A DNA stretch of 64,000 nt from Mumia quercus (GTDB lineage: Bacteria; Actinomycetota; Actinomycetes; Propionibacteriales; Nocardioidaceae), in NCBI RefSeq assembly GCF_025506335.1, contig NZ_JANZYO010000001.1, positions 124,001-188,000 on the forward strand, written 5' to 3'. Of the stretch, positions 1,524-43,585 are shown piece by piece. The number at the start of each line of letters is the position of its first letter. Position 1 is the first letter of the stretch. The notes beneath the pieces are model-generated. The model was not told the DNA's origin and did not search any database. It was given only the letters and a program-made list of their open reading frames with translations. A program made the position numbers and the translations under genes.

Positions 1524-1913
1524 ATGTCCACGACCTACACCCCGGCGGAGGCGGCGGAACGTTCCGGCTTCTCGCTCGACACCCTGCGCTACTACGAGCG
1601 TGAGGGCATCCTCCCGCCTGTCGCGCGCTCGGCGGGCGGGCAGCGGACCTACACCGACGTGGATCTCGCGCGGTTGGGGTTCTTGCGCTGCCTGCGCGAC
1701 ACCGGCATGCCGATCGCGCTCTTGAGACGGTACGGGGAGCTGTCGGTCGACGACTCCACCCTTGCCGAGCGCGTGGCCCTGCTCGAAGACCACGCGACGG
1801 CGGTCAGGCAGGAGATCGACGAGCTGCGCCAGAGGGAACGCCAGCTTGCGGAGAAGATCGCCTGGTACCGCGCCGAGCTCGTACGCTCCGCCGCGCGCCA
1901 GCCGCCCTCCTGA
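1524..1913 (+). CDS. MerR family regulator, AdhR/NmlR-like
   Basis: DNA-binding regulator of 129 residues: an N-terminal MerR winged helix (TPAEAAERSGFSLDTLRYYE) and a C-terminal dimerisation coiled coil. It carries a single cysteine, Cys56, in the context RCLRDTGMPI. In the AdhR/NmlR branch a cysteine at this place senses aldehydes or thiol-reactive electrophiles; there is no metal-binding C-terminal loop as in CueR or MerR. With the palindrome at 1485-1504 it probably activates the divergent aldo/keto reductase and itself. The branch assignment is inferred from the cysteine, the operator and the neighbour. Confidence 0.85.
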   Translation: MSTTYTPAEAAERSGFSLDTLRYYEREGILPPVARSAGGQRTYTDVDLARLGFLRCLRDTGMPIALLRRYGELSVDDSTLAERVALLEDHATAVRQEIDELRQRERQLAEKIAWYRAELVRSAARQPPS

Positions 1914-1948
1914 CTGACAATCGCCGGGAGGGCGGACCGGGGGGTGCG

Positions 1949-3958
1949 ATGGCGCAGCAGCAGCCGGACACGGCGGCAGAGAGCGACAACCTCTCGTCGG
2001 CCAAGGTCTGGACGATCTTCGGCGGGCTGATGCTCGCCATGCTGCTGGCGGCGCTGGACCAGACCATCGTCTCGACCGCGCTGCCGACGATCGTGCAGGA
2101 CCTCGGGGGCGGTGAGCACCTGTCCTGGGTCGTCACCGCGTACATGCTCGCGTCGACCGTCACCACGATGCTGTGGGGCAAGCTCGGCGACCTGTTCGGC
2201 CGTAAGACCCTGTTCCTCATCTGCATCGTGGTGTTCCTGGCCGGCTCGGCGCTCGCCGGGACGTCGGAGACGATGGGCCAGCTCGTCGCCTGGCGGGCCG
2301 TGCAAGGCGCCGGCGGCGGTGGACTGATGGTGCTGTCGCAGGCGATCATCGGCGACGTCGTGTCCCCGCGCGACCGCGGCCGCTACCAGGGAGCCTTCGG
2401 CGCCGTGTTCGGCGTCGCCAGCGTGGCCGGCCCGCTGCTCGGCGGGTTCTTCGTCGACAACCTCTCCTGGCGGTGGGTCTTCTACATCAACCTGCCGCTC
2501 GGCGCCGTCGCGCTCGTCGTCGTGATCGCCGTCCTGCCGCGCATCAAGCCTGACCGCGACCCGCACGTCGACTACGCGGGCATCCTCCTGATCGGGACGG
2601 TCGCGACCACGATCGTGCTCATCACCAGCCTTGGCGGCACGACCTGGGGATGGAACTCGGTCCAGGTGTGGAGCTGCGCGGTGATCGGCGTAGTCGCCCT
2701 CATCGCCTTCGTGCAGGTGGAGCGGCGTGCGCCGGAGCCGGTCCTCCCGCTGAGGCTCTTCGCCAACCGTGTCTTCACCACGACGGCGGCCGTGGGGTTC
2801 GTCATCGGCTTCGCGATGTTCGGTGCGATCACGTACCTGCCGCTCTACCTCCAGCAGATCAAGGGGTCGACCCCGACCCAGTCGGGCCTGGAGATGCTCC
2901 CCATGATGGTGGGCCTCCTCATCACCTCGGTGGGCAGCGGGCAGATCATCTCCCGCACCGGTCGGTACAAGGTCTTCCCCATCGCCGGCACCGCGGTGAC
3001 CGCGCTCGGGCTCTTCCTGCTGTCGCTGATGGGCCGGGACACCTCGACGCTGCAGTCCTCGGTCAGCATGTTCGTGCTCGGACTCGGCCTCGGCATGGTC
3101 ATGCAGGTCCTCGTGCTCGCGGTGCAGAACGCCGTCGCCTACCGCGACCTCGGCACCGCCACCTCGGGGGCGACCTTCTTCCGTACGATCGGCAGCTCGG
3201 TCGGCGTCGCGGCGTTCGGCGCGGTCCTCAACCACTCGCTGCGCGAGACACTGTCGCGCGACGTTCCCGCCGGCGCGACCGGGGAGTGCAGCGCCGGGGC
3301 GCTCGAGGGATCCGCGCTCGGCATCGAACGCTGCGAGCCGGCTGTGCGCGCGTGGTTCCTCGATGGGTACGCCGACGCGATCCACACCGTGTTCCTCACC
3401 GCCGTCCCCGTGGCACTCGTCGCGTTCGTGATCACCTGGCTCATCCCGGAGGTGAAGCTGCGCAAGGTCACGGGTCGTACGGACAACGGAGACGCGGCGG
3501 GACACTCGTTCGCCCTGCAGTCGAGTCGTACGTCGCTGGAGGAGCTGCGTCTCCAGCTGTGGCGCCGCGTCGGCCGGCAGGACCCGCTGCGCATGTACGA
3601 GGCGCTGGCGCGCGCGGTCGACCTGGGGTTGTCGCCCGAGGAGTGCTGGATGGTGACGCGTGCGTCGCTGAAGGGGCCGCGCTCGATCGCGCCCATGGCC
3701 GAGCGCGCGAAGAGCACGCCCGAGCGGGTACGGGCCGTCGCCGAGTCCCTGGCGTCTCGGGGGTTCGTCTCCGTCGACGGCGACACCGTCACGGCGACCT
3801 CGCGAGGCGACGAGGCCGCCGAGCAGATCCGAGTGAAGGAGCGGGCGCGGTTGAAGCGCTACCTCGACGACTGGGACCACGAGCCGGAGATGGACGAGCT
3901 GGTCGACCAGCTCACCGAGCAGCTGCTCTCCGAGGACCGCCCGGTTCCGTCCTCCTGA
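1949..3958 (+). CDS. DHA2-type MFS multidrug exporter with C-terminal winged-helix domain
   Basis: Proton-driven drug exporter of 669 residues. Residues about 25-500 contain some 14 membrane segments with the family motifs LDQTIVSTALP (helix 1) and GKLGDLFGRK (loop 2-3). DHA2 exporters usually end near residue 500. Here about 150 further residues follow (from about 515), soluble and charged, with a stretch like a MarR-type winged helix: helix, MAERAKSTPERVRAVAESL, then GFVSVDGDTVTATSRG as the wing. The role of this tail is unknown; it may be cytosolic regulation. The gene follows the MerR regulator by 35 bases and may be co-transcribed. Confidence 0.88.
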   Translation: MAQQQPDTAAESDNLSSAKVWTIFGGLMLAMLLAALDQTIVSTALPTIVQDLGGGEHLSWVVTAYMLASTVTTMLWGKLGDLFGRKTLFLICIVVFLAGSALAGTSETMGQLVAWRAVQGAGGGGLMVLSQAIIGDVVSPRDRGRYQGAFGAVFGVASVAGPLLGGFFVDNLSWRWVFYINLPLGAVALVVVIAVLPRIKPDRDPHVDYAGILLIGTVATTIVLITSLGGTTWGWNSVQVWSCAVIGVVALIAFVQVERRAPEPVLPLRLFANRVFTTTAAVGFVIGFAMFGAITYLPLYLQQIKGSTPTQSGLEMLPMMVGLLITSVGSGQIISRTGRYKVFPIAGTAVTALGLFLLSLMGRDTSTLQSSVSMFVLGLGLGMVMQVLVLAVQNAVAYRDLGTATSGATFFRTIGSSVGVAAFGAVLNHSLRETLSRDVPAGATGECSAGALEGSALGIERCEPAVRAWFLDGYADAIHTVFLTAVPVALVAFVITWLIPEVKLRKVTGRTDNGDAAGHSFALQSSRTSLEELRLQLWRRVGRQDPLRMYEALARAVDLGLSPEECWMVTRASLKGPRSIAPMAERAKSTPERVRAVAESLASRGFVSVDGDTVTATSRGDEAAEQIRVKERARLKRYLDDWDHEPEMDELVDQLTEQLLSEDRPVPSS

Positions 3959-15932: not shown

Positions 15933-16006
15933 TCGGGGTGACAGGATTTGAACCTGCGGCCTCGTCGTCCCGAACGACGCGCGCTACCAAGCTGCGCCAC
16001 ACCCCG
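15933..16006 (-). tRNA. tRNA-Pro (anticodon CGG)
   Basis: A 74-base cloverleaf without encoded CCA. The acceptor arms are CGGGGTG and CACCCCG with discriminator A. The anticodon stem CGTCG/CGACG encloses the loop TTCGGGA, anticodon CGG, reading CCG codons. The T arm contains GGTTCAAATCC. It lies between dinB and the metallophosphoesterase gene. Confidence 0.95.
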
Positions 16007-40444: not shown

Positions 40445-41185
40445 GTGCCTGACCCGTTTTCCGCCTTGATGACCCTCGACGGCGTCCCGTCGGCGTTCGC
40501 CGCGACGCGCGACGGTCTCGACTCGCTCCTGCGCGACCGAGGGCTGCGCCGCAGCACCCCCGAGATGACGGTCGACTCGCTGCTGCTCGGTGCGGCCGCG
40601 AGCGCGGCGATCGAGGGGGTGCCGTACGACCCGGAGGGCCTCCGCCGTGGCGAGGCCGACCCCCTGGCCCTCGCGGTCGCGCGGATGAGCACCGAGCTCC
40701 TCTCGCTGGTCCCCACCTGGCACAAGGCGCCGCTCCAGGCGATCGCACGCATCCACGCCCTGGTAGCGCGCGGGCGGGTCGACGACGACGTGCTCGGCCG
40801 TCCGGTCTCGACCGAGGGCGCCGAGCGGCTCGGGACCCTCGCGCGGGCGGTGGTCGCCCCGACCGAGGCGCCGGGGCTGCTGGTCGCCGCGGTCGTGCAC
40901 GCCGAGATCGCGACGGCGCAGGCGTTCGCGTCCGACAACGGGATCGTGGCCCGGGCGACCGAGCGGCTGGTCATCGTCGCGAAGGGGGTCGATCCCGCGA
41001 GCCTCACGGTCCCGGAGGCCGGCCACCGGGCTGCGGGCGCGGCGTACCCGACGCTGCTGAGCGAGTACGAGTCGGCGGGGACGTCCGGGGTCCACAAGTG
41101 GCTCCTGTACGCCGCGCAGGCCTACGCCGACGGCGCCGAGGCGGCTCCGGTCGAGCCTCCGAAGGGTCCGCGGCGCCGGTCCTGA
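40445..41185 (+). CDS. Degenerate Fic-fold protein (Rv3662c-like position)
   Basis: Protein of 246 residues. Residues 53-58 read SAAIEG, fitting the (S/T)xxxE(G/N) inhibitory-helix motif of Fic enzymes. Around 152-170, HAEIATAQAFASDNGIVAR aligns with the Fic core HPFxDGNGRxxR, but the catalytic His, Pro, a Gly and an Arg are replaced (Gln159, Ala160, Asp164, Ile167). Asn165, Gly166 and Arg170 remain. AMPylation is therefore unlikely. It is the counterpart by position of Rv3662c, next to the Ms1-type RNA locus. The Fic relationship is my inference from motifs. Confidence 0.7.
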   Translation: MPDPFSALMTLDGVPSAFAATRDGLDSLLRDRGLRRSTPEMTVDSLLLGAAASAAIEGVPYDPEGLRRGEADPLALAVARMSTELLSLVPTWHKAPLQAIARIHALVARGRVDDDVLGRPVSTEGAERLGTLARAVVAPTEAPGLLVAAVVHAEIATAQAFASDNGIVARATERLVIVAKGVDPASLTVPEAGHRAAGAAYPTLLSEYESAGTSGVHKWLLYAAQAYADGAEAAPVEPPKGPRRRS

Positions 41186-41189
41186 GACC

Positions 41190-41440
41190 CGCGCCGCAGG
41201 GGCAGGCGCGCCACCTGCTCGAGATGGCGCGCCCTTGGCTGACCGTCTTCTCGGCTACCAGGCGTCCTGTACTCCGTAGCACCAACCCGGGGCCTCGATG
41301 GGTTCTCCCGTGGGTGGTATCCCTGTAGGACGGGAAGGGTCGTCGCGTGGGTACCGGGCCTTCGATCTGCCGTCTTACTTGTCTCCTTTGTACCCGCTCA
41401 GGGCGGTTACGGCTACCCCTTGGCGGGAGATCGCCAACCC
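41190..41440 (-). ncRNA. Probable Ms1/MTS2823-type small RNA
   Basis: A 337-base gap between convergent genes with no coding frame that fits. In M. tuberculosis the abundant RNA MTS2823 (Ms1), which binds core RNA polymerase in M. smegmatis, lies between Rv3661 and Rv3662c. Here the gap lies between the same two orthologue types in mirrored order, so the RNA should be on the minus strand. Seen in sequence: hairpin TTGGCG/CGCCAA (41421-41438), a rod with TCCCGT/ACGGGA inside CGA/TCG and CCCGG/CCGGG, and a terminal 9-bp GC stem at 41205-41233. CGGCTACC and CCCTTGG occur twice, near each end. The exact ends and strand are inferred. Confidence 0.6.
41205..41233 (-). terminator. GC hairpin at the 3' end of the Ms1-like RNA
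   Basis: GGCGCGCCA and TGGCGCGCC form a perfect 9-bp stem with an 11-base loop. There is no T tract. It could also terminate the Fic-like gene from the other side. Confidence 0.6.
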
Positions 41441-41450
41441 CGCACGCACG

Positions 41451-41507
41451 CGTTGGTGCGTGAGTCGTCACGCGAGTCGCGCCGGTGACCTCTGAGGCAC
41501 CAACGCT
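41451..41507 (-). terminator. Long hairpin between HAD gene and Ms1-like RNA
   Basis: GCGTTGGTGC (41451-41460) and GCACCAACGC (41498-41507) form a perfect 10-bp stem around 37 bases, which hold a further GTCAC/GTGAC pair. It begins 16 bases after the HAD stop codon and would separate that transcript from the RNA. Confidence 0.6.
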
Positions 41508-41522
41508 GCGGACGATCGGCGA

Positions 41523-42356
41523 CTACTCCGAGCGACGCCGCTTGATCTGGTGCAGCGCGACGCCGGCGGCTGCGGAGACCGCCGCGGCGGCGATCCCGGC
41601 GACGGCGACCTTGCTGCCGGTCGACTCGAACGACACGCGGCTCTTGAGCGCCATCGGCTCGGCGAACTCGAGGATCGGCCAGCCCTCCTCGGCCGCGAGA
41701 CGGCGCAACGCCTTGTCGGGGTTGACCACGTACGGGTGGCCGACCTCGGCGAGCATCGGCACGTCGGTCTCGGAGTCGGAGTACGCGTACGAATCCGTGA
41801 GGTCGTACCCCTGCTCCTCGGCGAGCTCGCGGATCGCGGTCGCCTTGTTCTCGCCGTAGGCGTAGAGGGCGATCTCGCCGGTGTAGCGGCCGTCCTCCTC
41901 GACGAGCTGCGTCGCGATCACGTGGTCGGCTCCGAGCATCGCGCCGATCGGGTCGACGACCTCCGAGCCTGACGCGGAGACGATGACGACGTCGCGGCCC
42001 GCGTCGTGGTGGGCGGCGATCAGCTCGACGGCCTCGACGTAGACGAGCGGGTCGACGACGGTGTGCAACGTCTCGGCGACGACCTGTCGGACGGTCTCGA
42101 CGTTCCAGCCCTCCACGAGCTGGGTGAGGTACGCGCGCATCTTCTCCATCTGCGCCTCGTCGGCACCCTGCAGGGCGAACACGAACTGCGCGTACGCGCT
42201 GCGCAGCACCGAACGGCGCGTGATGAGCCCCGAGTCGTAGAACTGCCGCGAGAACGCCAGCGTGCTGGAGCGGGCGATGATCGTCTTGTCGAGGTCGAAG
42301 AATGCCGCGGAGCGCGTGCTCGCGGGCGGGACGGGCGTCGCGTCGGACGTGGTCAC
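41523..42356 (-). CDS. HAD-IB family phosphatase (Rv3661-like)
   Basis: Phosphoserine-phosphatase-like hydrolase of 277 residues. The nucleophile motif is FFDLDKTIIARSS (DxD), motif II VIVSASGSEVV, Lys in GENKATAI and motif IV YSDSETDVPML. A C-terminal membrane helix (VAVAGIAAAAVSAAAGVAL) with a basic tail is present. GTG 42356 is chosen because TATGCT lies seven bases upstream; longer starts exist. Divergent from ssd, as in mycobacteria. Confidence 0.88.
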   Translation of the reverse strand: MTTSDATPVPPASTRSAAFFDLDKTIIARSSTLAFSRQFYDSGLITRRSVLRSAYAQFVFALQGADEAQMEKMRAYLTQLVEGWNVETVRQVVAETLHTVVDPLVYVEAVELIAAHHDAGRDVVIVSASGSEVVDPIGAMLGADHVIATQLVEEDGRYTGEIALYAYGENKATAIRELAEEQGYDLTDSYAYSDSETDVPMLAEVGHPYVVNPDKALRRLAAEEGWPILEFAEPMALKSRVSFESTGSKVAVAGIAAAAVSAAAGVALHQIKRRRSE

Positions 42357-42363
42357 GCGTTCA

Positions 42364-42369
42364 AGCATA
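42364..42369 (-). promoter_or_regulatory. -10 element of leaderless HAD phosphatase gene
   Basis: On the minus strand TATGCT, seven bases, then GTG 42356. Confidence 0.5.
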
Positions 42370-42487
42370 GACAGCCGAGACCGTCGAAGGCGTCGCATAT
42401 TGCTCGTGGTCGGTCCACAGGAGTGTGCTGTCCCCAGGCGGGCGAAAGGTCGGCGTGCTCGTGGCGCGCCGGACACACGCTCTCCGC

Positions 42488-43585
42488 ATGGTTGCCTTCG
42501 CAGGAAGCCCACGCTCACCACGACCCCTGCTCGTCACCGCCTCCGAAGAACGCCTCGAGTCCGTGCTCCGGCTCTGCGCGGCAGCAGGTGTCGAGCCGCA
42601 CGTGTGCACCGACGTGGGTGCGGCGCGTCAGCTCTGGCCGCGCGCCGGGCTCGTCGTGCTCGGTGACGAGCTGCTCGACGCGGTGGCGGCCGCGGCGCTC
42701 GAGCGGCGGTCCGACGTCGTGGTGGTCGCCGACGAGTCACCCGATCCGAAGGTGTGGGGAGCAGCGCTGGCGGTCGGCGCCGACCGCGTGCTGGCCCTTC
42801 CACGCGACGACGACACGCTCTGCGACGCGCTCGCGGACGGGGCCGAGGGCGAGGGACCGGACGCGCCGGTCCTGGCGGTCGTGGGTGGCTGCGGGGGCGC
42901 CGGGGCGTCCTCGCTCGCCGCCGCGCTCGCGCTGACGGCCGGCCGTCGACGCGCGGCCGTCGGTGGGGGCGATCCGCGCGTGCTGCTCATCGACGCCGAT
43001 CCCTGGGGCGGCGGGCTCGACGTCCTGCTCGGCGTGGAGTCGGTGCCCGGGCTTCGCTGGAGCGACCTCGCGTCCACGCACGGGAGGGTGAGCGGCGCCG
43101 CGCTGAGCCGCTCGCTGCCGCGCGTCGAGGGGCTGGCGGTCCTCGCGTGGGACCGCGGTGCGGCGGTGCCGGCTCCCGCCGAGACCGTTCGCGCGGTGCT
43201 GTCAGCGGGGCGGCGCGGCCACGACCTCGTCGTCGCCGATCTCCCGCGCCATCTCGACGCCGCGGCCGAGGAGATCCTCGCGCGAGCCGCCTCCGTCCTG
43301 CTGGTCGTGCCCGACGACGTCCACGCGGTAGGCGCGGCGTGCGGCGTCGCCGAGGGCCTCGCCGGGTGGGCCGGCGGCGCCGGGCTCGTCGTACGCCGGC
43401 GACGGCGAGGGCTTCCGCCCGACCTGATCGCCGAGACCTTGGCGCTGCCGCTCGTCGCGACCGTGGACGACGACGTGAGGTTCAGGCGCTCGGTCGAGGA
43501 GGGCCTCGGCCCGCTGGCGCGGCGCACCGCCGTGGGGCGGACGGCTCGTGAGGTGCTCGACGCCCTCGGGCTGGAGCTCCGATGA
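42488..43585 (+). CDS. ssd: Ssd/TadZ-like septum-site and pilus-localisation ATPase
   Basis: MinD-superfamily protein of 365 residues. An N-terminal receiver-like domain without phospho-acceptor pattern (RPLLVTASEERLESVLRLCA) precedes a ParA/MinD fold. The P-loop is VVGGCGGAGASSLAAALAL: the lysines are lost, as in Ssd and some TadZ proteins. LLIDADPWGGGLDVLLG follows. It heads the Tad pilus operon and overlaps tadA by four bases. Ssd affects septum placement in mycobacteria; TadZ places pilus machinery at the pole. Either or both may apply. Confidence 0.85.
   Translation: MVAFAGSPRSPRPLLVTASEERLESVLRLCAAAGVEPHVCTDVGAARQLWPRAGLVVLGDELLDAVAAAALERRSDVVVVADESPDPKVWGAALAVGADRVLALPRDDDTLCDALADGAEGEGPDAPVLAVVGGCGGAGASSLAAALALTAGRRRAAVGGGDPRVLLIDADPWGGGLDVLLGVESVPGLRWSDLASTHGRVSGAALSRSLPRVEGLAVLAWDRGAAVPAPAETVRAVLSAGRRGHDLVVADLPRHLDAAAEEILARAASVLLVVPDDVHAVGAACGVAEGLAGWAGGAGLVVRRRRRGLPPDLIAETLALPLVATVDDDVRFRRSVEEGLGPLARRTAVGRTAREVLDALGLELR

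Follow-up and report, generated by a model that had tools for sequence, protein, structure and literature searches.

Do positions 41186-41522 of the window (the whole 64,000-nucleotide stretch that was analysed), a gap flanked by convergent genes of the actinomycete Mumia quercus, hold the gene of an Ms1-type RNA, and does such an RNA set this organism apart? The literature, cited here from excerpts throughout, describes for Ms1 a hairpin with a bubble and binding to the core of RNA polymerase (RNAP) (PMC4191392), places Ms1 on the RNAP core in Streptomyces coelicolor (PMC9130861) and confirms Ms1 homologues on RNAP (PMC11077062). An earlier, sequence-only reading of the window assigned the gap to an Ms1-type RNA on the minus strand and saw in it a first extension of Ms1 beyond the mycobacteria. 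The claim to be first has to be withdrawn. Ms1 candidates from 824 species and 146 genera were published in 2022, with six genera of Nocardioidaceae, the family to which Mumia belongs (Actinopolymorpha, Aeromicrobium, Kribbella, Nocardioides, Marmoricola and Pimelobacter; PMC9130861, excerpts). Ms1 is already known as a kind, and from the same bacterial family as Mumia. Mumia itself is absent from the main text of that paper as excerpted, the species list being in the supplement, and our literature search returned no paper pairing Mumia with Ms1 RNA. The assignment itself is borne out by a purpose-built covariance model, by its overlap with the Rfam Ms1 model in other genomes and by synteny. 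The gap very probably holds the Ms1 RNA gene of this Mumia, a single-copy gene and an ordinary relative of the known members, whose RNA would, by homology, bind the RNAP core.

Gene context of the gap

The gene map of the window confirms that the gap separates two convergent genes. The neighbourhood proposed for it, of HAD phosphatase, Fic-like gene and Ssd, is upheld by profile matches and by the recurrence of the same neighbours in other genomes, with the Fic-like name taken from weak homologue matches (Table 1). The HAD-IB gene lies upstream of the RNA on the same strand, the Fic-like gene converges on it, and Ssd lies beyond, followed in the profile search by a TadA-family ATPase; this is the neighbourhood typical of Ms1. 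In Mycobacterium tuberculosis, MTS2823 presumably lies between Rv3661 and Rv3662c, with which the Mycobacterium-type loci of the present set agree. Fic, HAD and CpaE are also among the synteny words given in the excerpts of PMC9130861. PF02661 (Fic) is matched weakly by two homologues of the Fic-like protein (E 2.3e-4 and 0.029, neither reaching the cut-off); the protein itself has no Pfam match, and no solved structure matches it at E up to 1. The gap had been described as free of coding frames. A mechanical open reading frame of 155 codons (41004-41471, minus strand) crosses it; the distance between the two conserved core strands described below varies from 69 to 97 nt in related gaps, not in steps of three, which speaks against coding.

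The sole match in the window at an Rfam gathering score is a tRNA gene (15933-16006, minus strand, 64 bits). The 6C RNA (RF01066) was found about 3 kb or less from the place of Ms1 in eight of 12 scanned loci (L102-L105, L107, L113, L115 and L119); the window contains none at gathering score.

Table 1. Features of the putative Ms1 locus, in window coordinates. R1 is the covariance model, and A2 the alignment, described in the text.
Feature	Position	Strand	Remarks
Fic-like protein, convergent neighbour	40445..41185, start predicted	+	Name from weak homologue matches
Ms1 RNA gene (probable)	41203..41381, ~178 nt, both ends predicted	-	R1 match 41221-41387, 78.9 bits
Terminal hairpin	41205..41233	-	Arms of 12 nt, 92% complementary; not followed by a T-run
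Closing stem, 3' arm CGGUC-A-GCC	41237..41245	-	Duplex fold of flanks, -12.0 kcal/mol
3' core strand CGCCTGGTAGCC	41253..41264	-	Pairs with 5' core (GG/CC, CCA/UGG, GCG/CGC)
Apical hairpin B (ACCA-CC-CGGG...CCCG-GG-UGGU)	41281..41318	-	Hand-drawn; own arm ranks best
Apical hairpin A, short (UCCC...GGGA)	41320..41335	-	CCC/GGG helix, 99.2% of cells paired in 83 sequences
5' core strand GGTACCCACGCG	41344..41355	-	Near-invariant in A2
Closing stem, 5' arm GGC-A-GAUCG	41363..41371	-	Strong over all genera, not above chance in the window
-10 element TACAAA	41387..41392	-	TACAAA at the same place in 26 of 44 related gaps
-35 region TAGCCG	41410..41415	-	17 nt upstream of -10; poor match to TTGACA
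HAD-IB hydrolase	41523..42368	-	TIGR01490, 209.9 bits; upstream of RNA, same strand
Ssd, CpaE homologue	42425..43585	+	TIGR03815, 302.2 bits

A conserved element downstream of the HAD gene

A search with the HAD protein gave a match in all 58 genomes, the own genome included, and a strong one (E below 1e-90) in 51. Fifty of the 51 strong loci were extracted (G023 was left out) and 44 of these entered alignment A1; among the other six, L007, L009, L019 and L037 have no core beside HAD, L020 is inverted and L031 lies at a contig end. The 44 aligned loci share an element downstream on the HAD strand, which comprises usually a GTACAAA-like -10 element, then GGNACCCACGCG and later CGCYTGGTARCC, often with a strong hairpin after it as judged by eye. 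Related gaps with other letters at the -10 place have variants such as TAGAAA or are automated mispicks, and four of the 44 have no candidate. The -35 region is unchanged in five of the six Mumia genomes and reads TAGCCC in the sixth. A consensus scan at the locus found no standard sigma-70 site, and a terminator scan found no T-tailed site at the RNA 3' end. The RNA ends given in Table 1 are predictions, the 5' end from the -10 hexamer and the 3' end from the terminal hairpin. On its minus strand the window has the 5' core from 41355 and the 3' core from 41264, at a distance of 91 bases. The 5' core pattern has two further occurrences there, the 3' core pattern none.

A covariance model, R1, was built from the 44 related gaps, all from Propionibacteriales (153 positions, 27 pairs). 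A covariance search with this model gave one match in the window, and the own genome has no other. In the search of relatives, R1 found exactly one copy each in 51 of the 58 genomes, the own genome included, and none in G007, G017, G031, G034, G040, G050 and G053. All six Mumia genomes were matched. Seven matches lie outside the training set (G006, G010, G011, G023, G030, G037 and G045; E 5.1e-10 to 9.7e-25). Where a locus had stayed outside A1, R1 matches the RNA in four of the six genomes (G006, G010, G011 and G030), not in G007 or G017. Over 295 genomes of the class, 142 were matched, many of the weaker matches (E 1e-5 to 1e-3) being candidates by model score; six of the 295 had supplied training sequences, which leaves 136 matched among 289 genomes that the model had not seen.

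Thirty-nine of the matched loci were fetched with their flanks, picked to cover strong, weak and held-out cases, and L129 (G017) was included as a case without match. All 39 have an HAD, Ssd or Fic-like gene in the flanks. An HAD homologue is missing from the flanks of 17, and Ssd is present in 14 of these (L115, L116, L118, L119, L127, L128, L130, L131, L133, L134, L135, L136, L140 and L141). The link between Ms1 and HAD that is stressed in the literature is thus not obligatory. The same 17 loci speak against the idea that the element is the 3' untranslated or terminator region of the HAD gene and no independent RNA, which would explain why it follows that gene on the same strand and why the gap contains hairpins. 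Such a reading is extremely unlikely, as the RNA has a -10 element of its own that is common in related gaps, and as in L124 (G006; RNA at 1854-2002, plus strand) the RNA together with the Fic-like gene is inverted relative to HAD and points towards it. The L124 arrangement is a local inversion.

At L129 (G017:C3; L019) the convergent frame, read from stop to stop, starts about 26 nt past the HAD stop, and R1 finds no copy anywhere in the genome; Ms1 has apparently been lost in G017.

Structure of the RNA

The sequence-only reading had pointed to three stems and two repeats in the gap. All are present, yet as structure they do not clearly exceed chance. Folding gives a z of -1.61 for the minus strand over the full gap (7 of 100 shuffles equally good), -0.35 for a 255-nt part of it (72 of 200) and -1.53 for the plus strand (7 of 100). 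The stems alone therefore prove nothing. One of them, 41205-41233, falls within the RNA as the terminal hairpin; the short stem at 41421-41438, judged by eye, and the hairpin at about 41450-41506 lie upstream of the predicted promoter and outside the RNA. In the closest relative, L002, whose HAD protein is 91% identical, the spacer from HAD to core measures 91 vs 167 nt, that is, 76 nt less, which indicates that the two outer stems are not conserved parts. The repeat CGGCTACC is found at 41252-41259 and 41410-41417, and CCCTTGG at 41232-41238 and 41417-41423. Both also occur elsewhere in the window, with CGGCTACC counted four times on the plus and five on the minus strand, and CCCTTGG three and four times, respectively. 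Of the two copies of CGGCTACC in the gap, one forms the 3' core of the RNA (minus strand GGTAGCCG) and the other lies within the -35 region. At each of these two sites (41232-41259 and 41410-41423) both repeats are found together, which may be chance. The true signal of the gap is its conservation.

A conserved core structure was found among related genomes. RNAalifold on the MAFFT alignment A1 returned only eight core pairs with a covariation term of 0.01, probably because MAFFT misaligns the variable stems, and a search of the columns for covariation without guidance gave a noisy result. Both were replaced by a flank-swap test and by A2, an alignment of 83 sequences fitted to the model. The 27 pairs of A2 are formed in 86.0% of cases vs 73.1% after shuffling, with 277 two-sided changes vs 90.2 in shuffles and 57-95 for slid structures, counts biased towards the structure, to which A2 was fitted with sequences that R1 had selected. 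Sliding the partners by one to three columns lowers pairing to 30-45%. The window forms 20 of the 27 model pairs. The core helix, in which GGUACCCACGCG pairs with CGCCUGGUAGCC, is near-invariant, and G42, A44, C45, C46, A48, C49 and G52 of A2 are identical in all 83 R1-selected sequences. The core helix and hairpin A are thereby supported as an Ms1-like structure. The loop of hairpin A and the strand preceding the 3' core were considered, by eye only, as partners in a candidate pseudoknot.

All nine pairs of the closing stem in A2 show two-sided changes, with 79.9% paired, and in the flank-swap test over 44 genomes cognate flanks pair far better than exchanged ones (z -11.9, 0 of 20000 permutations; between -12.5 and -13.9 when the arm length is varied). 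In the window this stem is not above chance, since 16 to 23 of the 38 right flanks taken from other genera are better partners for its left flank than its own; among the six Mumia genomes the one exception is L006 (3 to 4 of 38). Hairpin B has inner helices that are 92.5 and 91.6% paired and an outer helix with only 52.0%. In an arm swap its own arm is the best in the window (rank 0 of 44), and the effect over all genomes is weaker (z -3.1, 26 of 20000 permutations equally good, median rank 24 of 44).

These results also weigh on the view that the gap contains functionless chance stems of GC-rich DNA. The global folding energies, not clearly above those of shuffles, would fit it. A near-invariant core, covariation far above shuffles and the recurrence of the same core in loci chosen by the independent model RF02566 (see below) make it the least probable of all readings considered.

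Kinship with Rfam Ms1

The Rfam Ms1 model, RF02566, does not match the window at gathering score or at E up to 5, nor does it match the own genome or the same-order genomes of the class set. The earlier reading had taken a covariance search without a match as grounds for rejection. The mycobacterial model gave none, yet R1 matches; the null result fails as a refutation because RF02566 is narrow, as R1 shows. The excerpts of PMC9130861 report likewise that Rfam yields candidates only near mycobacteria, and that a structure-based homology search was unsuccessful and gene order was relied on instead. Over the 295 class genomes RF02566 matched 33, 22 of them above the cut-off. In the 15 genomes matched by both models the matches overlap on the same strand without exception, two of these genomes being Streptomyces-type; this label, like "Mycobacterium-type", was assigned partly from Rfam matches and an oligonucleotide match. 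RF02566 reaches gathering score in four of the six Mycobacterium-type loci, at the same place and on the same strand as R1, and scores below the cut-off in the other two. Under strict filters R1 missed 18 of the 33 genomes matched by RF02566. Of the 18 loci found by RF02566 alone, 14 fit both core patterns without mismatch and the remaining four are one or two letters off per core; the 5' pattern fits without mismatch in 15, the patterns being degenerate and written after the Mycobacterium-type loci L102-L107 had been inspected.

The Mycobacterium-type loci resemble that of Mumia in both core strands, in having one match per genome, and in the order Ssd, HAD, RNA, Fic-like gene with its orientation, complete in four of six and cut by contig ends in the other two. 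Mycobacterial Ms1 is 304 nt long vs about 178 nt for the Mumia RNA with its predicted ends, and the 5' core lies 78-82 nt from the start in Rfam matches vs about 27 nt from the predicted start in Mumia. The S. coelicolor homologue, scr3559, shares the same cores, and the order HAD, RNA, Fic-like gene, Ssd is found in all five Streptomyces-type loci (L108-L112), with TACAAA upstream in four and TAGAAA in L109. It differs in a longer 5' arm and a length of 227-235 nt (PMC9130861, excerpts), to be compared with about 225 nt, counted by eye, between the predicted start and the far end of the last hairpin in L110. One spelling of an oligonucleotide for scr3559 matches three of the five Streptomyces-type loci at the TACAAA element, 3 of its 25 letters being substituted; none of the five is matched by the other spelling or by a second oligonucleotide, both taken from the excerpted PMC8539372. 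That paper, as excerpted, assigns scr3559 to one strand, and PMC9130861 and R1 support the opposite one; PMC9130861 and PMC11077062 agree in their mapping of its 5' end (excerpts). Length, weakness of the closing stem and a -35 region that does not resemble TTGACA distinguish the Mumia RNA from known members.

A further question is whether the RNA could be a 6S RNA proper, binding the sigma-containing holoenzyme. There is a similarity in overall shape and in a length close to 190 nt, the hairpin of 6S RNA (RF00013) resembling, as Ms1 does, an open promoter with a central loop (PMC4191392, excerpts), and the Streptomyces homologue has been called a 6S RNA, with reported binding to RNAP-HrdB (PMC8539372, excerpts). 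RF00013, however, has no match in the own genome and matches five of 14 control genomes, the core and synteny of the locus are those of Ms1, and later work, in the excerpted parts, has the Streptomyces homologue on the core enzyme without HrdB (PMC9130861, PMC11077062). A 6S RNA at this locus is therefore very unlikely. CoRP RNA of Corynebacterium is, like Ms1, an actinobacterial RNA associated with RNAP; unlike the Mumia RNA it measures about 500 nt, and close homologues are reported only within Corynebacterium (PMC11077062, excerpts).

Discussion

With Ms1 as the preferred reading, the locus may work as follows in Mumia. Expression would start from the promoter downstream of the HAD gene and yield an RNA of about 178 nt ending at the hairpin before the Fic-like gene. 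This RNA is predicted to fold as a long hairpin in which the closing stem and the core helix are followed by an internal loop at the centre and two small hairpins at the apex. As a homologue of Ms1 from M. smegmatis and S. coelicolor, it would bind the sigma-free RNAP core, mostly when growth stops. Its physiological role may be to keep the bound core enzyme in store for regrowth.

The strands GGNACCCACGCG/CGCNUGGUANCC are invariant from Mycobacterium-type genomes to Mumia, even at A44, C45 and C49 of A2, which are drawn unpaired. Tentatively, these paired strands might be the element by which Ms1 contacts the polymerase, with Mumia carrying a trimmed Ms1 that can do without the 5' extension and most of the closing stem; we regard this combined proposal as possible and somewhat doubtful.

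With Ms1 beyond the mycobacteria already published, the finding is of practical use in that one covariance model spans Mumia and Streptomyces- and Mycobacterium-type genomes. In the class set it reaches several times as many genomes as the Rfam Ms1 model, yet misses more than half of those that the latter matches. For the biology of this RNA, the near-invariant core provides the letters to change for learning how Ms1 grips the polymerase.
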